A stretch of DNA of 19,843 nucleotides from a bacterium (GTDB lineage Bacteria; B130-G9): assembly GCA_021160245.1 (NCBI GenBank), contig JAGHCW010000094.1:1-19843 (forward strand), read 5' to 3'. The translations under genes were made by a program, and so were the position numbers. The notes below the pieces were generated by a model that was not told the origin of the DNA, searched no databases, and worked only from the letters and a program-made list of their open reading frames with translations. Shown one piece after another: positions 1,747 through 11,803 of this stretch; the first letter of the stretch is position 1; every line of letters begins with the position of its first letter.

Positions 1747-1971
1747 ATGTTGGCACGTTTCGGGATCTTTGTCTTGTTCGCTATTATTTTCTCCGGATTC
1801 CTCAACTTCGCAACGTGCGCTGCGATCGAGGTTAAGGTTGACGCCTCCGATCTCGCCGCGCCACCAAATGCAATGGACAGGGAGGTTTATGAGTTCACTG
1901 TCGCCGGCGGCAGGGACGGCGGAGGCTCTCCACCCCAAAACGATGCCAAGATAGCAAAGGAGGAGAAGTGA
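1747..1971 (+). CDS. Small exported protein (74 aa), probable relic of a beta-helix paralog
   Basis: ATG 1747 is chosen because GGAAGGGAA lies six bases upstream; the earlier in-frame ATG 1732 has no such site. Residues 1-25 form a clear signal peptide (MLARFG, a hydrophobic run, then ATCA before the likely cleavage). The mature part is only about 50 residues. Its end, YEFTVAGGR followed by DAKIAKEEK, resembles the end of the downstream beta-helix protein (AEFLIMGGER... DAKIAKEEK). The stop TGA (1969-1971) shares one base with the ATG of the next gene, and the last codons contain that gene's AAAGGAGG ribosome site, so translation is probably coupled. I read it as the two ends of a former full-length paralog left by an internal deletion. 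It could instead be a genuine small leader or exported peptide. Confidence 0.55.
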   Translation: MLARFGIFVLFAIIFSGFLNFATCAAIEVKVDASDLAAPPNAMDREVYEFTVAGGRDGGGSPPQNDAKIAKEEK

Positions 1972-2020
1972 TGAGAACGGGTCGTATCATTCTTCTGGTT
2001 GGCGCGTGTCTGCTAATCGT
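1942..2020 (+). repeat. Junction repeat, copy 1, with embedded Shine-Dalgarno
   Basis: 79 bp that recur at 3975-4053 with one mismatch (1947 C versus 3980 T). It spans the last nine codons of the upstream gene (DAKIAKEEK), the ribosome site AAAGGAGG (1956-1963, seven bases from the start), the TGATG stop/start overlap, and the first 16-17 codons of the next signal peptide. The period is 2033 bp. It marks the boundary of the tandem duplication unit. Confidence 0.93.
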
Positions 2021-4004
2021 ATCCTTCTCAGCACGAGGGGCGTTGTCGGCGGATTATTACGTCGATGCGGAGCTCGGCAGCAATGACAATTCTGGCCTCT
2101 TGCCAGACGAGGCGTTCAAGACAATCACTTACGCTCTGGATACTATCAGGACGGACATCACGACACCAGCGACGATTCGTCTTGCGGCTGGCACCTATTC
2201 GGAGGATACGAATGGAGAGACATTCCCGATAATGATGACATCGGCAACATCTCTGATTGGAGGAGGGCCTGAACTCACGATTCTGTTCTTCGACCAGACG
2301 GAGAGTGAGGTGGGCAAACCCAAATGTATATTTTGTAACGAGATTACGGACGTCCACATTGAGGGGATTTCTATTGAAAGAGCCGGTGAGAAGAGCATAG
2401 CAGTGGCTTTTTACTCGTGCCACGGGCAGACGTCAGTTAAGAACTGCAGCATGAGAGGTGTTAGCAACGGCGTCATGAATTACACACCGAATCGCTACGA
2501 TGAACACTGGATACTCGATATTGAGGAGTGCTACATTGAGGGGGGAGTATATTACGACGGTACCAAGCAGGAAACAATCAAATCCTGCACTTTTGCCGGC
2601 GGCTTCGTTCTGGGTGGTACTCTTTTGACAATTGAGGACTGCGCTTTCATTGAGTGCTATGTCCATCCAGGCGGCAACCCGGGTCGTATATCGAACTGCA
2701 CGTTTCTGGACTGTGGGCTTCGAATTGATGGCGGAGTTTTAACAATGGAGAAATGCAGTGTCATTCGGGGCAATGTGATAGGCGACACCTGCGACTGGCC
2801 GCCATCGGGCATCGATGTCTCGATCAATGATTGCCTATTCGTCCCACGCTCCGATACTCGGCCGGTCTATGCCGCGATTGATTTCACTGTTTTCCACGTC
2901 GGGGACATGCCATCGACGTATCCTACAATCAAGTTCTCAAAAGATGTCGAGCCGGGCGTGAAACTCAAAGTCAACAACTGCCAGATTGCGAATGGCAAGT
3001 ACGGCATAAGGACATTTTTACAGGGCAGTCCCTCGGTGGGGTGTGATTCGACGATCACAAATTGCAGGATATCGGGAACCCAATATCCGATTTGTCTCAG
3101 CGGGCATTCGGCGCTTCGAAACTGCCTCATCACCGCCAACTCGGGTGATGGCTATGCGCTCTTCTTACAGCATGGCGGGAATGTCTGGAATTGCACAATC
3201 GCTGGCAATGACATGTTCGGCATTGGAGCGAGTGACGGACAGGCGACGGTAAGGAACACAATTCTAGAGAATTCGGGAGAGGAGATCACTTCATCGGGGA
3301 AATACGAGGCAGTTGTCATGCGCAGCCTCATTGAGGGTGGTTTCGAGGGGGAGGGGAACATCGATGCCGACCCGCTCTTCGTCCCGGGTCCGCTCGGGGA
3401 CCACTACCTCAGCCAAGTGGCGGCCGGGCAGGATGCGGACAGCCCGTGCGTGGACGCTGGCACCGGCCTGGCAGCCAGTTACGGACTTGCTAGCAAAACG
3501 ACCAGAACGGACAACGTGCCCGACGCCGGCATGGTGGACATCGGTTACCACTACCCCGGAACGCCTCCTACGATCGACTGCCGAATCGCCACCGGCTCGA
3601 TCGTTGCGGCAGGCGTTGACGAGGCGCCTCGTTTCACGCCTGGTGATAGGCTGACGGCTCAGGCGTCGCTCAGGAACGACGGCCCGCCGATTTGGGTTGA
3701 CATTTACGCGGGATTCTTGTGCCCGGGTGGCAGCATCCTCTGCCTCACTGCGGAGGGTTTGACGCCCGATTTCGGCCCGCTGGTGCGCGACTTCCTCTTG
3801 GACACGGGCATGGCAATTGACCCGACTACGCTGCTCTCATACGAGATCACGGTCCACGTGCCGGAGGGCGAGTACGCCTTCGCCACAGCGCTCTCCTTCG
3901 CCCGCGAGCCATTCCGACCCATCGGCCAAATCTCCACCGCCGAGTTCCTGATTATGGGTGGCGAGAGAGCACCTGATGCTAAGATAGCAAAGGAGGAGAA
4001 GTGA
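1971..4004 (+). CDS. Secreted right-handed beta-helix protein, paralog 1
   Basis: 677 residues from ATG 1971; the GTG at 1968 is in frame but sits too close to the strong AAAGGAGG site. Residues 1-27 are a signal peptide ending ALSA. Residues 28-75 (DYYVDAELGSNDNSGLLPDEAFKTI) match the DUF1565-like opening of many extracellular beta-helix proteins. Residues ~85-450 are rungs repeating about every 20-25 residues around an Asn/Asp/Glu-Cys step (KNCSM, SNCTF, NDCLF, NNCQI, TNCRI, RNCLI, WNCTI), implying a cysteine ladder. Residues ~464-528 carry the DADPLFVPGP...SPCVDAG...VDIGYHYPG signature that closes such helices. Residues ~530-660 form a separate beta-rich domain also found in the protein at 9623-11803. 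No catalytic residues for polysaccharide cleavage are evident. The last 13 residues or so (ERAPDAKIAKEEK) are absent from paralog 2 and come from the junction repeat. Confidence 0.9.
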   Translation: MRTGRIILLVGACLLIVSFSARGALSADYYVDAELGSNDNSGLLPDEAFKTITYALDTIRTDITTPATIRLAAGTYSEDTNGETFPIMMTSATSLIGGGPELTILFFDQTESEVGKPKCIFCNEITDVHIEGISIERAGEKSIAVAFYSCHGQTSVKNCSMRGVSNGVMNYTPNRYDEHWILDIEECYIEGGVYYDGTKQETIKSCTFAGGFVLGGTLLTIEDCAFIECYVHPGGNPGRISNCTFLDCGLRIDGGVLTMEKCSVIRGNVIGDTCDWPPSGIDVSINDCLFVPRSDTRPVYAAIDFTVFHVGDMPSTYPTIKFSKDVEPGVKLKVNNCQIANGKYGIRTFLQGSPSVGCDSTITNCRISGTQYPICLSGHSALRNCLITANSGDGYALFLQHGGNVWNCTIAGNDMFGIGASDGQATVRNTILENSGEEITSSGKYEAVVMRSLIEGGFEGEGNIDADPLFVPGPLGDHYLSQVAAGQDADSPCVDAGTGLAASYGLASKTTRTDNVPDAGMVDIGYHYPGTPPTIDCRIATGSIVAAGVDEAPRFTPGDRLTAQASLRNDGPPIWVDIYAGFLCPGGSILCLTAEGLTPDFGPLVRDFLLDTGMAIDPTTLLSYEITVHVPEGEYAFATALSFAREPFRPIGQISTAEFLIMGGERAPDAKIAKEEK

Positions 4005-4053
4005 TGAGAACGGGTCGTATCATTCTTCTGGTTGGCGCGTGTCTGCTAATCGT
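3975..4053 (+). repeat. Junction repeat, copy 2, with embedded Shine-Dalgarno
   Basis: Second copy of the 79-bp block at 1942-2020, 2033 bp downstream, 78/79 identical by eye. It again encodes DAKIAKEEK, places AAAGGAGG (3989-3996) seven bases before the next ATG, and joins the genes by TGATG (4002-4006). The third gene lacks this block at its own end, so the array stops there. Confidence 0.93.
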
Positions 4054-5998
4054 CTGCTTCTCGGAACGAGGCGCGTTGGCTGCGGACTACTACGTCGATG
4101 CAGAGCTCGGTAGCAATGACAACTCTGGCCTATTGCCAGACGAGGCGTTCAAGACAATTGCGTATGCCCTTAACACTGCTGCATCAACGCCCGCCACAAT
4201 CGCTGTGGCTGCCGGGACTTACTCCTTCGAGACAAATGGCGAGACTTTTCCGCTTGCGATGATGTCATCTACTTCATTGATGGGGGAAGGAAGTGATTCC
4301 ACTAGAATCCTCGCTGATGCCGAATCTCAGTGGATAATTGAGGCCAGCCATTTGGACAAGGTGAGGGTAGAAGGGCTGTCATTGCTTAGGCCGTTCCCGG
4401 TCTCAACCAGAGCAGGTGGGATGGTAACATATAGTTGCGGAAGCGTTTGCCTGCGAGACTGCGTCGTACGTGGGAATGCATCCTTTGGCCTTTCGTTAGG
4501 GGTATCTTCGTCTCCGAGTGCACAAGGGACGCTCTCGATCGACAGCTGCATAATAGCCGATAACGGTTTGTGTGGCATATCATGTGATAGCCCCAACACA
4601 TGGATTAGGAATTCTTACATCGAGGACAGGGCCTCTCTTAAGAAGCAATTCACAGTTGTGAATTGCACATTTATCGGCGACGGCGTCTCTGGAGGCGGCC
4701 ATCCTGGTCTTATATCGAACTGCACTTTCTCGGACTGTGGGATTAGCCTTAATAGCGGCACTTTGACGATGGAGAAATGCAGTGTCATTAACGGTAACGT
4801 GATAGGCGAGACCTCTGACAGGGCGTTGCATGGCATCGACGTCACGATCAATGATTGCCTATTCGTCCCAAGTTCCGACGCTTGGCCGGCCGATGCCGCA
4901 ATCGATTTCACGGTGATGGACGCCGGCGGCGACATGCCATCGACATATTCTACAATCAAGTTCGCAGAAGACCCCAAGCCGGGCGTGAAGCTGAAGGTCA
5001 ACAACTGCCAGATCGCCCAAGGCGAATACGGCATACGCACATTCTTATATGACAACCCCTCGGTGGGCTGTGATGCGACGATCACAAACTGCAGGATATC
5101 AGGAACTCAATATCCCGTCGATCTATTCGGGTATTCGACGCTTCGGAACTGTCTCATCACTGGCAACTCAGGTGATGGCTATGCGGTCTTCCTGGAGCGG
5201 CGTGGAGAAGTCGAGAACTGCACAATCGCTGACAACGATATGTTCGGCATCGGCGCCAGGATACGCACAGCGAGTATCACGAACACCATCCTGCAAAACA
5301 CCGGCGATGAGATCACTTTATTAGGGGGATACCAGCTAGTTGTCATGCGCAGCTTAGTACAGGGTGGTTTCGAGGGCGAAGGCAACATCGACGCCGACCC
5401 GCTCTTCGTCCCGGGCCCGTTTGGCGACCACTACCTCAGCCAACTCGCCGCCGGGCAAAATGCTGATAGCCCCTGCATCGACGCTGGTTCAGGCCTTGCG
5501 GCAAGTTATGGACTTGGCAATAAGACCACCCGAACGGACAACATGCCCGACACCGGTATGGTTGACATAGGCTACCACTACCCAGGAACGCCTCCTACAA
5601 TCGACTGCCAAATAGGCTCCGGCTCGACCGTTACGGCTGGCGTTGACGAGGCGCCTCGTTTCACGGCTGGCGACACCCTGACGGCTGCGGCCTCGCTCAA
5701 GAACGATGGCCCGCCGATTTGGGTGGACGTTTACGCGGGATTCTTATGCCCAGACGGTAGCATCCTATGCCTCACGGCTGCCGGTCTAACACCCGATTTT
5801 GGCCCGCTTGTCCGAGATTACCTTCTGGACAGGGGCATGTCGATTGATCCGACAACGCTGCTATCCTACGAGTTGAGCGCCCATGTCCCACAAGGCGAAT
5901 ACACATTCGCAACGGCCATCTCATTCGCCCGCGAGCAATTCCGATCAATAGGTGCAATCAGCACAGCGCCATTTGCGGTTGTAGGCTCGGGTAAATGA
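4004..5998 (+). CDS. Secreted right-handed beta-helix protein, paralog 2
   Basis: 664 residues from ATG 4004, which overlaps the preceding stop by one base. The signal peptide (to about residue 27, ending ALAA) and the YYVDAELGSNDNSG opening are nearly identical to paralog 1. Residues ~75-235 diverge strongly in sequence and length. Rungs such as SNCTF, NDCLF, NNCQI, TNCRI, RNCLI and ENCTI then realign. The helix-closing signature (DADPLFVPGP ... VDIGYHYPG) and the C-terminal beta domain (DGPPIWVDVYAGFLCPDGSILCL ... GEYTFATAISFA) are again close matches. It ends naturally in AVVGSGK without the junction tail. Likely role, by family and export signal: cell-surface or extracellular structure, adhesion or glycan binding. 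No enzyme activity can be claimed. The paralogs differ mainly in the early rungs, which would be the variable face. Confidence 0.9.
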   Translation: MRTGRIILLVGACLLIVCFSERGALAADYYVDAELGSNDNSGLLPDEAFKTIAYALNTAASTPATIAVAAGTYSFETNGETFPLAMMSSTSLMGEGSDSTRILADAESQWIIEASHLDKVRVEGLSLLRPFPVSTRAGGMVTYSCGSVCLRDCVVRGNASFGLSLGVSSSPSAQGTLSIDSCIIADNGLCGISCDSPNTWIRNSYIEDRASLKKQFTVVNCTFIGDGVSGGGHPGLISNCTFSDCGISLNSGTLTMEKCSVINGNVIGETSDRALHGIDVTINDCLFVPSSDAWPADAAIDFTVMDAGGDMPSTYSTIKFAEDPKPGVKLKVNNCQIAQGEYGIRTFLYDNPSVGCDATITNCRISGTQYPVDLFGYSTLRNCLITGNSGDGYAVFLERRGEVENCTIADNDMFGIGARIRTASITNTILQNTGDEITLLGGYQLVVMRSLVQGGFEGEGNIDADPLFVPGPFGDHYLSQLAAGQNADSPCIDAGSGLAASYGLGNKTTRTDNMPDTGMVDIGYHYPGTPPTIDCQIGSGSTVTAGVDEAPRFTAGDTLTAAASLKNDGPPIWVDVYAGFLCPDGSILCLTAAGLTPDFGPLVRDYLLDRGMSIDPTTLLSYELSAHVPQGEYTFATAISFAREQFRSIGAISTAPFAVVGSGK

Positions 5999-7014: not shown

Positions 7015-7043
7015 ACTATTGTTCCTGAGACCGGTTTTGTCAA
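7015..7043 (-). promoter_or_regulatory. Promoter for the IclR regulator
   Basis: On the minus strand TTGACA (7043-7038, perfect), a 17-bp spacer and AATAGT (7020-7015, 4/6), next to an AT-rich downstream stretch. The -35 box is inside the outer arm of the inverted repeat 7035-7107. Confidence 0.6.
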
Positions 7044-7107
7044 GCGATTATTGAGGCAAATTTCACATAGGAGCGGAAACACCTCAATAATCTAACTCTT
7101 GACAAAA
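7035..7107. repeat. Interrupted inverted repeat holding two back-to-back TTGACA boxes
   Basis: Outer arms TTTTGTCAAG (7035-7044) and CTTGACAAAA (7098-7107) are perfect complements. Inner arms GATTATTGAGG (7046-7056) and CCTCAATAATC (7082-7092) are also perfect. They are separated by one base on the left and five on the right, with a 25-base centre. The outer arms contain the -35 boxes of the leftward IclR promoter and of the rightward repeat copy A. The arrangement suits a regulator binding both arms, or a DNA hairpin. Confidence 0.8.
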
Positions 7108-7410
7108 TATGTGAAAACATGTCCTATGTCTTCGTAGTGTTTTGAGGGGAATTCTTGAGTGTTAGGTTAGAACCCGGGCCCATTGGATTCTGGTGCTGCA
7201 AAATTGTGACGCCGTTACACGCACGGGGAAAACAGCATGACTTGTCCGTCGAGGGTAGATGGAGTCCGCGCGCCTCGTAACCGAGCGCAAACATCCGGCG
7301 CGCCAATGGCTCGAAACGCGCCTCATGCCATCCTCAAATGCCTTTTACAACACCCGATTCACCTATATGAGAGGGAGCATGAATCAATTCAGGGAGGAGG
7401 CTCGCTCATC
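7075..7410 (+). repeat. Promoter-led ~335-bp element, copy A (decayed)
   Basis: Aligns with 9175-9512 across its whole length, roughly three quarters identical by eye, with single-base indels. It starts with TTGACA (7099-7104), but the -10 position reads TCCTAT, a poor match. The hairpins that are perfect in copy B are each broken here by at least one mismatch (for example AGAACCC facing GGATTCT). No reading frame on either strand is shared throughout: frames are interrupted by a stop or an indel in one copy. It probably represents a non-functional copy of a non-coding element. It ends about 45 bp from the convergent radical SAM gene. Confidence 0.8.
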
Positions 7411-7456
7411 TGATTACGAGAGATTCATCTCGGAACAATTGAATCTTGGATAGGGA

Positions 7457-8917
7457 CTAGTTCTTCACAAGCAACCGGAGCAGCTTGCCGAAGTATGGCC
7501 GGTTGAAAATGAGCTGCGCAGGCTTGGTTATCAGCAGGCGCATCACAAATCTCGGCGCCTTTGTATTGAAGAGGCCTAGCACGAAGTTGAGGTAGGTCCG
7601 TTTCTTGTGGAAGAGCTGTTTGCGATACACTTGCTCTCTCCAATCGGTGATTATACCAGCCTCGACCGCCCTGTCACCCAACTCCGTTCCAGGAAATAGC
7701 GTCAGGCAGAAATATTGGATGAAATACGGCCTCTTGAGCCGCAACAGGAGGCGGATACTCTCGATTACGTCCTCATCCACCTCCATCGGATTGTCGATGA
7801 TGATGTCGTAGCGAGGAGGCAGTATCCTCGGAACATACCCGACTAGCCTATTCGCAATTGAGATGATCTCATCGTTGGAGAAAGGCCGTTTATACATCTT
7901 GCGAATCCGCTCGCTGCCCGTCTGAATGCCCATTTGCAGGTAGATCATGCCGGCATTGACCATCATCTCGAGCTTGTTATCGTTAATGCCAAACGGAGTC
8001 CCAAGCGAGAAGAAGGGCAATCCAATCTTAGCCCTGTAAGCCTCGCAGAACTCACGTATCTGCAACTCATCGGTGTCGAAAAAGGAATCGTCACTCAAAA
8101 CCAGCAGCTGAACGAATGGAAGGTTCTTGCGAACCCACGAAAGCTCCTCAATCACGTTCTCCACCGACCGGCGCCTCACGAATGCGCGTCCGCCGTAGAG
8201 TTTGAGTAGCGAGCGGTTGCAGCAGTAAGTGCAGGCATAGCGGCAGCCCCTTGTCATCATCGTGATGTAATAGGGCTTTTCCTGCGCGGTCTTCTTGCCG
8301 GGCGCTGCGGTTAGCATGATTCGCTCGAGCAAATCCATATCCATCTTCTGTAACTTGTCGTCAAGCAACACGTAGTCGTCATCAAGCGAGTAATCCGGAA
8401 AGGGAATGTCGTCCATATTCGCGACCAGTGGCCTGGGAGGATTTCGAACCAGTTCGCCCTTCTTGAGGTGGCAAAGGTTGGCAATGCCGGACACATCCCT
8501 GCCATCAGAAAGAGCCCGTGCGATATCGACAATCGCTCCCTCGCCCTCGCCGAGGCAGACGTAGTCGGCAAACTCCGCGCACTCTCCGGGCATCAGCGTA
8601 GCATGAATGCCGCCGATCACAATCGGGACATCGATCCTCTCACGTAGGAATTCACACAGCTGCACCACCCGATCGAAGTAATTCGTCATGAGCGATACCC
8701 CGACGAACAAGGCGTCCTTGCAGAGCTCGCCGACCTGCTCCAGAACTTCCTCCGAATAAAGGAATAATCCGGGTGGGATATCGCCCTTTTCTTGCGCAAT
8801 CTGCAAGAAGAGCTTTCTGGTCTTGAAGCCGGCCTGCTTGAGGCAGCTGGACAGTATCCTGGGCCCCATGGACGAAATGTCAGAGTACGGTGATATGATG
8901 ACCGCTGGCTTATCTAT
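7457..8917 (-). CDS. B12-binding-type radical SAM protein, probable AUA start
   Basis: The first in-frame ATG is 8869-8867 (470 residues), but no ribosome site precedes it and it falls after the first beta strand of the N-terminal domain. Reading back to AUA 8917-8915 adds IDKPAVIISPYSDISS, the expected Rossmann strand, with AGAGAGG nine bases upstream; a stop lies a few codons further. With this start the product is 486 residues. Numbering from the ATG, residues 1-150 are the cobalamin-binding-like fold (FVGVSL, VPIVIGGIHATLMP, YVCLGEGEGAI) without a DxHxxG motif, so true B12 binding is doubtful. Residues ~195-410 are the radical SAM domain with C209-x3-C213-x2-C216 (CRYACTYCC). A C-terminal tail follows. 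Family members act on lipids, cofactors or peptides; the substrate is unknown. It is flanked by the two direct repeats at 7075 and 9175. Confidence 0.85.
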   Translation of the reverse strand: MDKPAVIISPYSDISSMGPRILSSCLKQAGFKTRKLFLQIAQEKGDIPPGLFLYSEEVLEQVGELCKDALFVGVSLMTNYFDRVVQLCEFLRERIDVPIVIGGIHATLMPGECAEFADYVCLGEGEGAIVDIARALSDGRDVSGIANLCHLKKGELVRNPPRPLVANMDDIPFPDYSLDDDYVLLDDKLQKMDMDLLERIMLTAAPGKKTAQEKPYYITMMTRGCRYACTYCCNRSLLKLYGGRAFVRRRSVENVIEELSWVRKNLPFVQLLVLSDDSFFDTDELQIREFCEAYRAKIGLPFFSLGTPFGINDNKLEMMVNAGMIYLQMGIQTGSERIRKMYKRPFSNDEIISIANRLVGYVPRILPPRYDIIIDNPMEVDEDVIESIRLLLRLKRPYFIQYFCLTLFPGTELGDRAVEAGIITDWREQVYRKQLFHKKRTYLNFVLGLFNTKAPRFVMRLLITKPAQLIFNRPYFGKLLRLLVKN

Positions 8918-8926
8918 TTTAGAGAA

Positions 8927-8933
8927 CCTCTCT
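8927..8933 (-). promoter_or_regulatory. Ribosome binding site deciding a non-AUG start
   Basis: AGAGAGG on the minus strand, nine bases before AUA 8917-8915. No ATG, GTG or TTG occurs in frame between the upstream stop and ATG 8869, which itself has no purine-rich site. Confidence 0.5.
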
Positions 8934-8997
8934 TTCGATAACTTGCAGCACTACTGAATCAGCAATCCGCCTCAGGTTTGATGCCACTCTGCCTCAG

Positions 8998-9026
8998 AAT
9001 ATCCTCCTAACGCCCATTCATGTCAA
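8998..9026 (-). promoter_or_regulatory. Promoter for the B12-type radical SAM gene
   Basis: On the minus strand TTGACA (9026-9021, perfect), a 17-bp spacer and GATATT (9003-8998, 4/6), giving a leader of about 75 bases before the AUA start. Between 9027 and 9174 I see only an inverted repeat AGCGGC / GCCGCT near 9110-9155 and no gene. Confidence 0.5.
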
Positions 9027-9174
9027 CGTCTCTCTCGCTTCTGCAATGGGCTCATGGAACCCGACTAAGAATTATGATGCGAAGTTGGTTCACAGATTGA
9101 AAGGCTGTAAGCGGCATTTTGCACTTTCTTTGTTCAAAGGCTTGACGGCCGCTGGAAGCTAGTTCGTCTAAATA

Positions 9175-9512
9175 CGAAAACTCCTCATAAATAAGCAGTT
9201 GACAGAATATGTGAAAACACATTTAATGCAATGGTAGTATTCTTAGGGGGATTTTCGAGTGTTAGTTTAGAACCCGCGGCCCATTGGGTTCTGGCGTCGC
9301 ATAGTTGTGACGCCGGTACACGGACGGGAGAGACAACATGGCTTGTCCGTCAAAGGTGGGTGGAGTCCGCGCGCCTCGTATCCGAACGCAGGCGTTCGGC
9401 GCCAGAATGGCCCGTAATGCGCCTCATACCCAGCCTGAAATGCCTTGTATCGCACGCGATTCGCTCTATAAGAGCGGAAGCATGAGGCAATTTCAGCAGG
9501 ATGCGCGAGGCC
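9175..9512 (+). repeat. Promoter-led ~335-bp element, copy B (intact; candidate ncRNA or leader)
   Basis: Homologous to 7075-7410. After its promoter come four perfect hairpins in a row: AGAACCC (9269-9275) / GGGTTCT (9286-9292); GGCGTC (9293-9298) / GACGCC (9309-9314); GACGGG (9323-9328) / TCCGTC (9346-9351, one G-U); CCGAACG (9382-9388) / CGTTCGG (9393-9399). Differences between the copies in the best minus-strand frame fall on all three codon positions (about 5, 7 and 9 in 37 codons), which argues against coding. It ends about 110 bp before the ATG at 9623, so it may form the 5' leader of that gene, or be an independent RNA, or a mobile repeat. I do not recognise a known riboswitch, RNase P, tmRNA, SRP or 6S consensus. 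Confidence 0.7.
9199..9227 (+). promoter_or_regulatory. Strong sigma70-type promoter with palindromic spacer
   Basis: TTGACA (9199-9204, perfect), a 17-bp spacer, TTTAAT (9222-9227, 5/6). The spacer and the first base of the -10 box hold the palindrome ATGTG-AAAA-CACAT (9209-9222), a classic place for a repressor. It would drive transcription of copy B and possibly of the secreted-protein gene at 9623. Confidence 0.65.
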
Positions 9513-9622
9513 ACCCTCCATAGCAACGCTCGGCGAATAGTACGGCTCACCGGGGTAATTGACAAGCAGGCTATTCTTTCTTTCGCAACATGAGTTCGTC
9601 AGTTGATAAGGGGATATTTGTA

Positions 9623-11803
9623 ATGGCACTAAGATCTAATGTTTTCGGATTTTCGGTTCTCGTCTTTCTTTTTTTCGTTTTCGTTAACCCACATTGTGTG
9701 CTGGGGGGGCGTATTGAGCTATCGCATGATAATGGCGCTAGGGATGTGGACGGCTGGTGGTCGCGCCCGGGAACCCCGGACACGAACTATGGGATCGCTG
9801 TCCGGTTCGATCCCCCGGCCTATCCATGTTTTGTTCGAGAGGTCTCGGCGTTTGTAAATGGGACGGGAGAGTTCCGCTTTCGGATACTAGACCTCTCGGG
9901 AAATGAGCTCTATTGTGGGGCTCCTATTTCTGCAGAAGAGCCAAATTCCTGGGCAATTCAGCAGATACTTGAAGAGATCAGGCTCGATTCGGGCGGCTTT
10001 TATGCCGTGGCGGAGATACTGACGCCGCTTGAACCGTGTATAGGCAAGACTGCCGACGTCGCCGGCGGAACCTCCACACACAGCTTCTTATGGACCTCTA
10101 AGTACGGCATAATAATGGGTGAGTCAGCGGACGTGATGATACGCGTGAAGGTGGACCAGCCGCTTCACGTCAGGCTCAGTTCAAGTTCAAACAGTCCGCG
10201 AAACAGGCACTTCTTCATTGAGTTCGAGTCGCCCATGGACGAATCGACGCTCAATGCCGAGAATCTGCCGTTTACGACTACATCGACCTGGGAGCCTGAG
10301 CTCATATCGGGCACTTACGACTACAACGGGATACTGAACAGGCTGGAGTTCATCCCCGATGAGCTGCTTGATGCTGGCAGTCTCGACCTGACAATCTCAG
10401 CTGGCATCTCCGACATATACGGCAATCATCCGCCTAAAGACGTCAGCAGTTGGATATTTGTCGATGATGAGCTGGACGTGATGGCGCCTGATATGCCCGA
10501 TTTGATCAACCTTCAGGCCTATGGCGATTCGCTAACCGCGAGTTGGCCACCAGTGCCTTTCTGCGGCGTTATAGGTCATTGGTTTTACTTTGGCCCTTCG
10601 GACCCCAAGATGAGCAATGAGGATTGGCTTACTGTGGCCAACAAGGTTGATATTGGGAACGTAACCGAGTACACCGCGCCGGTCTTTCATGAGGGAGCAT
10701 ACTACCGCGTCGGCGTATCAACATACGATAGTGCTCGTAACGAGAGCGAGGTAATCATCGGCGATTGTGCCCCGCGACTCGGCTCGGTTCTGGTCGTTTT
10801 GGAAGAGCCGATGTTGAGGCAGCGGGCATACTACGATGATGATGCTCAGGGCCTCATAGATGCAGTTGAGGCGGGGGCCTTCAATTATGAATTCTGGCGC
10901 GAGGCTGATCGAGGAGTGTTGCCATCGCTTGAGCACTTGCAGAGGTTCGATGCGGTCCTGTGGAGCATGGGCCCCCGGTGGGTCAATGAGGATACGCAAG
11001 TCCTGCAATTGCTCACCGATTACATGGCCGGTGGCGGAAGGCTGTACTACGAGGCGCGGAGCCTTCTGTCCTATACACTACTTTCGGACCTCTTCTTCCC
11101 GGAGTGGCTTCATCTGACGTTTGAGTTCGGGAATTCGGACTGGGAGGCGCCGGTGGTTTCAGGCGCTGCCGGCGACGCGATAGGCGACGGTTTGGAGCTT
11201 GTCTATGTAACGGACAGGACGGCGCGGAAGGAATACTTTGTGCCTCAGGATGGCGCGGTTCCCTTTCTCAGCGTGAAGGACAAGCCTGAGGAGGTCTGCG
11301 CCCAGCGTTTTGAGGACCCGGGAGAATATGGCTACAAGGTGGTATTTTCGACATCTCTTCTCTCTCCCATTTATACGGTTGAGGACAGGGACAAGCTGCT
11401 GTCACGATCGCTTGTCTGGCTGCAGGACAAAGAGCTGGACCTCAGGATTGCCACCAATACTAGATCACTTGCGCCCTATCGCGTCCTTGAGCTCTTCGTG
11501 GCGGCCAACAACATCGGCGAACCGGTCGATGTTGACGCATACCTTTGCGTCGAATTCAAGACGGCAAGCGGAGCTGGATTCATGTATTTCGACGGGGCCT
11601 CATTCGTTTCGGAGTCCGTCCCATTTGCGTCGAACGTGCGCCTCGAGAGGGGGCTGTTTCTTCCCAGGACAAAGATACTTGAATATCTGCTGCGCGAGGG
11701 GTTAACCGCGGGAGAATATGAATTCTCAGTCGGTCTGATGTTCGCCAATACGCTTTCGCCGGCCGGCGAGTCGAATAGCATATCTGTCTTCGTAAGGGAA
11801 TAG
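9623..11803 (+). CDS. Secreted multidomain protein (Ig-like, FnIII, GATase-like, shared C-terminal domain)
   Basis: 726 residues from ATG 9623, preferred to ATG 9590 because AAGGGGAT lies upstream and a normal signal peptide then begins (MALRSNVFGF, hydrophobic run, ending VLG). Residues ~30-175 look like a jelly-roll domain (WWSRPGTPDTNYGIAVRF). Residues ~180-285 resemble a bacterial Ig-like (Big_5/SbsA-type) domain (FFIEFESPMDESTLNAENL ... LDLTISAGISDIYGN). Residues ~290-390 resemble fibronectin type III. Residues ~395-610 resemble a ThuA/glutamine-amidotransferase-like Rossmann fold (VLVVLEEPM, FDAVLWSMGPRW, YMAGGGRLYYEARS) without an evident catalytic Cys-His pair. Residues ~615-726 are homologous to the C-terminal domain of the beta-helix paralogs (VDAYLCVEF ... 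GEYEFSVGLMFA). Likely a surface or extracellular protein. Its promoter may be the one in the repeat upstream. Confidence 0.85.
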   Translation: MALRSNVFGFSVLVFLFFVFVNPHCVLGGRIELSHDNGARDVDGWWSRPGTPDTNYGIAVRFDPPAYPCFVREVSAFVNGTGEFRFRILDLSGNELYCGAPISAEEPNSWAIQQILEEIRLDSGGFYAVAEILTPLEPCIGKTADVAGGTSTHSFLWTSKYGIIMGESADVMIRVKVDQPLHVRLSSSSNSPRNRHFFIEFESPMDESTLNAENLPFTTTSTWEPELISGTYDYNGILNRLEFIPDELLDAGSLDLTISAGISDIYGNHPPKDVSSWIFVDDELDVMAPDMPDLINLQAYGDSLTASWPPVPFCGVIGHWFYFGPSDPKMSNEDWLTVANKVDIGNVTEYTAPVFHEGAYYRVGVSTYDSARNESEVIIGDCAPRLGSVLVVLEEPMLRQRAYYDDDAQGLIDAVEAGAFNYEFWREADRGVLPSLEHLQRFDAVLWSMGPRWVNEDTQVLQLLTDYMAGGGRLYYEARSLLSYTLLSDLFFPEWLHLTFEFGNSDWEAPVVSGAAGDAIGDGLELVYVTDRTARKEYFVPQDGAVPFLSVKDKPEEVCAQRFEDPGEYGYKVVFSTSLLSPIYTVEDRDKLLSRSLVWLQDKELDLRIATNTRSLAPYRVLELFVAANNIGEPVDVDAYLCVEFKTASGAGFMYFDGASFVSESVPFASNVRLERGLFLPRTKILEYLLREGLTAGEYEFSVGLMFANTLSPAGESNSISVFVRE

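Follow-up and report, generated by a model that had tools for sequence, protein, structure and literature searches.

Some transposable elements insert at a fixed place: Tn7 inserts at glmS, and yeast Ty1 and Ty3 insert upstream of Pol III genes. Within the IS4 superfamily of bacterial insertion sequences (ISs), the range of target duplications includes 8-12 bp, the lengths found in the family described below. Short elements near promoters are represented by the Correia elements of Neisseria and by MITEAba12 of Acinetobacter, which, like the MITEs reported here, are geneless, have inverted ends and target duplications, and occur in many copies. MITEAba12 supplies outward-facing promoters of its own and inserts preferentially into AT-rich targets (PMC6382973). 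A different comparison is offered by structured 5′ leaders and riboswitches, in which several hundred nt of hairpins lie between a promoter and a gene, much as may hold for one of the two repeats examined here.

The window, a stretch of 19,843 nt, comes from a Candidatus Coatesbacteria-like metagenome-assembled genome (MAG) of 3.43 Mb in 244 contigs; its nearest named genomes are Candidatus Coatesbacteria MAGs. An initial annotation had described two repeats in this window as a candidate ncRNA or leader family, a structured non-coding element with one live and one dying copy. Taken alone the repeat pair is a modest finding, probably a duplicated promoter and leader of which one copy is dead, and the IS beside it matters more.

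Results

Two homologous segments, one with a consensus promoter

Copy A (7074-7404) and copy B (9175-9507), both on the plus strand, are homologous (77% identity); their MAFFT alignment starts at 7074/9175 and extends to about 7404/9507. The two ~335-bp segments of the initial annotation therefore stand, with slight corrections at their edges, where transposon ends were found: the 5′ edge of B (9171-9186) is itself a transposon end, and the 3′ edge of A runs into another at 7396-7419. A repeat scan of the window gave blocks 77-80% identical at a spacing of 2100-2102, and the TTGACA boxes, at 7099 and 9199, lie exactly 2100 bp apart, as had been noted. Three single-base indels separate the copies, all of them 3′ of the promoter. 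When copy B was used as a BLAST query against its own genome, the sole real second match was copy A (7074-7389, 316 bp, 77% identity, E 5.5e-63); all other matches had E>0.04.

A sequence scan places the promoter of copy B at 9199-9227 (plus strand, TTGACA-17-TTTAAT), with a transcription start expected near 9234. The corresponding remnant in copy A, at 7099-7127 (plus strand), reads TTGACA-17-TCCTAT, such that the -10 position is TTTAAT in B (9222-9227) and TCCTAT in A (7122-7127), in agreement with the earlier description. A consensus scan, which demands A at position 2 of the -10 box and so misses copy B's own box, listed nothing promoter-like on the plus strand from copy B to the next gene downstream. 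On the other side of copy A, the promoter of an IclR-type gene (minus strand, -35 at 7043-7038) stands back-to-back with the plus-strand promoter of A. Both sit within perfect inverted repeats that are nested, TTTTGTCAAG/CTTGACAAAA and GATTATTGAGG/CCTCAATAATC, and that may serve as an operator for the IclR regulator; of the region scanned for folding, this interval (7035-7107) gave the strongest signal (z about -4 to -5).

The segments do not behave as coding sequence. Substitutions in a 149-bp indel-free block fall 9/12/8 over the three codon positions, confirming the reported lack of codon-position bias, and non-synonymous codons outnumber synonymous ones in all six frames. The statement that no frame survives in both copies holds in substance, there being no coding signal, and needs amending in one detail: a single frame on the minus strand stays open in A and B alike across the 149-bp block, without synonymous bias. 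ORFs of the two segments matched no protein family or domain above noise. A protein-coding repeat was rejected on three counts, namely the 1-nt indels that would shift any frame, the lack of synonymous bias and the lack of a domain.

Local folding of copy B and the search for relatives

Pair analysis of the plus strand of copy B yielded four hairpins, at 9269-9292 (7 bp), 9293-9314 (9 bp), 9320-9350 (9 bp) and 9382-9399 (7 bp). All of their pairs are perfect, as the initial annotation had it, and copy A retains 27 of the 32, with five broken. The block from 9264 to 9360 folds better than 200 of 200 dinucleotide shuffles (z -3.41), as against z +0.45 for the equivalent block of A; for the whole leader the values are -1.96 (B) and +1.86 (A). 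Copy B is listed as a promoter with a structured leader segment and copy A as a decayed promoter and leader segment that folds no better than shuffles.

The comparison of the copies gives no measurable sign that pairing has been maintained in A. When the substitutions were placed at random, 25.1±2.0 pairs survived, as against the 27 observed; changes between A and B occupy 8 of 64 stem positions versus 26 of 123 others (Fisher P 0.17); and compensatory double changes number zero among the 32 pairs in this comparison of two sequences only. Searching the genome and its relatives with both copies and a covariance model, as the initial annotation had suggested, recovered only A and B: the model built from the two copies found nothing else in their own genome and three family-level genomes (G000-G003). 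Rfam gave no meaningful match for A or B at gathering or permissive thresholds, consistent with the earlier remark that they were not recognised as a known RNA class. A tRNA/tmRNA scan returned none, and no terminator-like hairpin was found in 9300-9620.

DNA searches for homologs of A or B were likewise empty in the genomes of 60 relatives and in plasmids, phages and viral contigs. Synteny revealed no similar segment beside the IclR, radical SAM or surface-protein genes of relatives, where the neighbours differ. We also sought a congener, finding none among genome contigs with the downstream protein, and only already-known relatives and distant genomes with an alignment of the radical SAM protein.

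A structured RNA family is thus not supported: there are two copies only, no further homologs in the genomes and collections searched, no compensatory pairs, and pair retention in A no better than under random substitution. The claim of such a family is without any comparative support. What survives of the picture of one live and one dying structured copy is that the element is non-coding, that B is the better preserved and A decayed, and that the promoter of B appears real (see below). A structured transcript from copy B alone is possible, judging from its predicted fold.

IS relics and neighbouring genes

Immediately upstream of copy B lies an internally deleted IS relic (9074-9186, plus strand), in which a transposase N-terminus (9074-9152) is joined to a right end (9158-9186). 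The two parts match the first 31 residues of the transposase and the right end of an intact IS in a relative (locus L123; tblastn E 2e-5, blastn E 2e-10). The right end, AATACGAAAACTCCTC, stands 12 nt from the TTGACA of copy B; between them are a presumed target duplication, ATAAATAAG (9187-9195, plus strand), and 3 nt (CAG) that precede the -35 box. The duplication is predicted from the rule of the family set out below, its left flank having been lost: only the right end of the relic survives, and the left end and first copy of the target duplication are gone.

A second right-end relic, GGAGGCTCGCTCATCTGATTACGA, occupies the 3′ edge of copy A (7396-7428, plus strand), where 22 of 24 positions agree (7396-7419); about 20,000 random 77-mers from the window never exceeded 16 of 24. 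Copy A begins with CGGAAACACCTC (7074-7085, plus strand), 13 nt upstream of TTGACA, a possible decayed IS or MITE right end that agrees with the one at copy B in 10 of 12 positions, a match that is weak alone. The bodies of A and B show no sign of derivation from the transposase gene, to which tblastx and blastn gave no match beyond the ends.

Directly repeated IS ends surround the gene between the copies, which encodes a B12-binding radical SAM protein (7457-8869, minus strand) and has orthologs in other neighbourhoods in relatives. These repeats suggest how the locus may have been rearranged. The first gene downstream of copy B encodes a surface-type protein (9590-11803, plus strand), with a more likely start at ATG 9624 and a signal peptide. 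In relative G001, the ortholog of this gene has upstream of it a right end, 11 nt, TTGACA and then a leader of several hundred nt, which has no detectable sequence in common with copy B. That locus (L083, G001:C141, 2030-2550) holds two MITEs end to end, of which it is the promoter-proximal one that stands 11 nt from TTGACA; the ortholog there is also preceded by a 123-aa secreted-protein ORF that is absent from the window. Elsewhere in the window, at 1968-5998, are tandem right-handed beta-helix surface proteins whose genes have DNA blocks 74-89% identical and overlap by 4 bp; a gene related to this pair adjoins the IclR ortholog in G001 and G003.

An IS family found at a fixed distance from promoters

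The intact IS at L123, in relative G003, encodes a 424-aa transposase with a PF01609 DDE_Tnp_1 domain (E 1.7e-12), and the window's own genome carries 3′ ends of this IS type. By sequence, the relic at 9074-9186 and L123 are assigned to the IS4 superfamily. Membership in IS701 or a named IS4 subgroup was rejected, as scores against these nearest NCBIfam models fall below the curated cut-offs (49 versus 150 bits and 46 versus 115 bits). Members end in the terminal inverted repeats CAGGAGTTTTCG...CGAAAACTCCTC and are flanked by target duplications 8-12 bp long. Its MITEs are short and lack the transposase gene, and have the same ends and target rule as the autonomous IS. Members include the relic at 9074-9186, L011, L012, L017, L020, L040, L142, L159 and others; the IS itself breaks contigs in these fragmented assemblies. 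At L017 (G000:C94), a MITE is located upstream of what looks like groES, accompanied by a CIRCE-like repeat, suggesting that the family also occupies heat-shock promoters.

IS and MITE ends were gathered from the own genome, G001 and G003. Among these fetched loci, which are not a full census, a -35-like box was present 10-16 nt downstream of 19 of 26 exact right ends (shuffled tails, mean 0.9 and at most 5), whereas only 1 of 23 exact left ends had one. A -10 box with ≤2 mismatches followed at 16-18 nt in 20 of 27 cases (shuffles, 16%). Because loci were picked by their match to the IS end and not by promoter, save those fetched as gene flanks, the association is not an artefact of promoter-based choice. 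Target duplications of 8-12 bp reached the threshold 21 times in 50 oriented entries, in which most elements are counted in both orientations, compared to 0.65 in a swapped-flank control. In all nine elements scored for both features, with duplications of 8, 9, 11 or 12 bp, the -35 box starts exactly 3 nt past the target duplication.

The same spacing was seen in a distant IS with 41% protein identity from an unrelated genome, where the duplication CGAAGATTGGA is followed by GGG and then TTGACA-18-TAGACT; a close relative of that IS has TTGAAT-17-TATTAT after it. Other distant IS relatives provided no clear case of promoter spacing, and no copies of the distant IS were found on plasmids. Since the family adjoining copy B docks 3 bp from real -35 boxes, its rule marks TTGACA-17-TTTAAT as a probable true promoter, at least at the time of insertion. 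Folding of 34 leaders behind promoters marked in this way gave a mean z of -0.24 (sd 1.0), so that such leaders are not generally structured.

Discussion

Origin and role of the two copies

Building on the homology of the copies, the IS relics and the promoter rule of the family, we propose, with a probability of roughly 0.6, that a promoter and its leader were duplicated locally, that B is the intact copy and leads the gene at 9590/9624, that A has decayed, and that an IS or MITE relic lies against the promoter of B. Both copies would descend from one promoter-plus-leader segment. An IS4-superfamily element or MITE would have inserted with its right end upstream of a host promoter, 3 bp before the -35 box, leaving the promoter intact, and recombination between directly repeated IS ends may have produced the duplication and allowed the radical SAM gene to enter. 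Copy B would keep a sigma70-type promoter (9199-9227) from which transcription is expected, and probably yields a structured 5′ leader of ~390 nt for the gene at 9590/9624. We read B as the promoter and leader of this gene because its promoter is IS-marked, the gene is the first downstream, no promoter-like site is listed between them, and the layout in G001 is similar. In copy A both the -10 box and the fold are gone, and the segment faces the 3′ end of the unrelated radical SAM gene.

Copy B could also be a free-standing RNA gene, or its hairpins could be incidental. The former, with B as an independent structured small RNA or a member of a fast-evolving RNA family and A as its dying paralog, would account for the row of four perfect hairpins (z about -3.1 to -3.4), for a consensus promoter whose site is marked as real by the IS rule, and for the non-coding character of the segment. 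We nonetheless regard it as unlikely, given that neither the covariance model in three family-level genomes nor searches elsewhere yielded a homolog, that none of the 32 pairs shows compensatory change and A keeps no more of them than expected at random, and that 9300-9620 is without a terminator-like hairpin. Much the same standing is given to the possibility that the pair is a neutral remnant, left by an old duplication of an intergenic segment and now functionless, in which the hairpins and promoter of B are leftovers or chance; the lack of conservation in relatives and the overall z of only -1.96 would fit, whereas B retains a near-consensus promoter and a local fold that beats every shuffle, and copy A shows what decay looks like. 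A mobile origin, in which the segment between IS right ends moved as a unit and A and B are two copies of this non-autonomous element, is very unlikely. Such ends do mark B at its 5′ edge and A at its 3′ edge, and possibly A at its 5′ edge too; however, they are direct rather than inverted, only two copies exist, both within 2.1 kb, no target duplication was found, and the body is unlike every MITE fetched.

For the IS family as a whole, we think it likely that a clade of IS4-superfamily transposases, together with its MITEs, targets sigma70 promoters and cuts at a point 3 bp before the -35 hexamer, always with the same end promoter-ward, probably through recognition of the DNA of the promoter or of RNA polymerase bound to it, and that the promoter of copy B is one such site. 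Selection without transposase targeting could produce an association of this kind if insertions survive only where promoters stay intact: intergenic insertion is generally tolerated, and every insertion seen leaves the -35 and -10 boxes intact. That selection alone is responsible seems highly improbable, as it would fix neither a distance of 3 bp beyond target duplications of varying length nor an orientation with the right end promoter-ward, and the 3-bp spacing recurs at 41% protein identity.

Comparison with known systems

Searches of open-access papers turned up no description of a promoter-targeted insertion sequence, which is weak evidence of absence. The family resembles the IS4 superfamily (IS4/IS701 groups) in its DDE_Tnp_1 transposase, in its best NCBIfam models and in having terminal inverted repeats; it differs in scoring far below every NCBIfam cut-off, and we know of no IS4-superfamily member that cuts at a fixed point by sigma70 -35 boxes in one orientation. 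Copy B, for its part, departs from described structured 5′ leaders and riboswitches in having neither an Rfam match nor, in the genomes searched, a homolog other than copy A.

In contrast to MITEAba12, the promoter here is that of the host, starting 3 bp outside the duplication. The likeness to Tn7 and to Ty1/Ty3 lies in a fixed insertion site and a host gene left intact; the difference is that the target would be the general bacterial promoter, and to our knowledge no targeting protein has been described for the present family. If the rule is true, IS and MITE relics would naturally map where the real promoters of uncultured bacteria lie, and the choice of target through recognition of promoter DNA or of RNA polymerase would become directly testable. 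A transposon that lands 3 bp upstream of the -35 box would then be a bacterial counterpart of the promoter-docking elements of eukaryotes.
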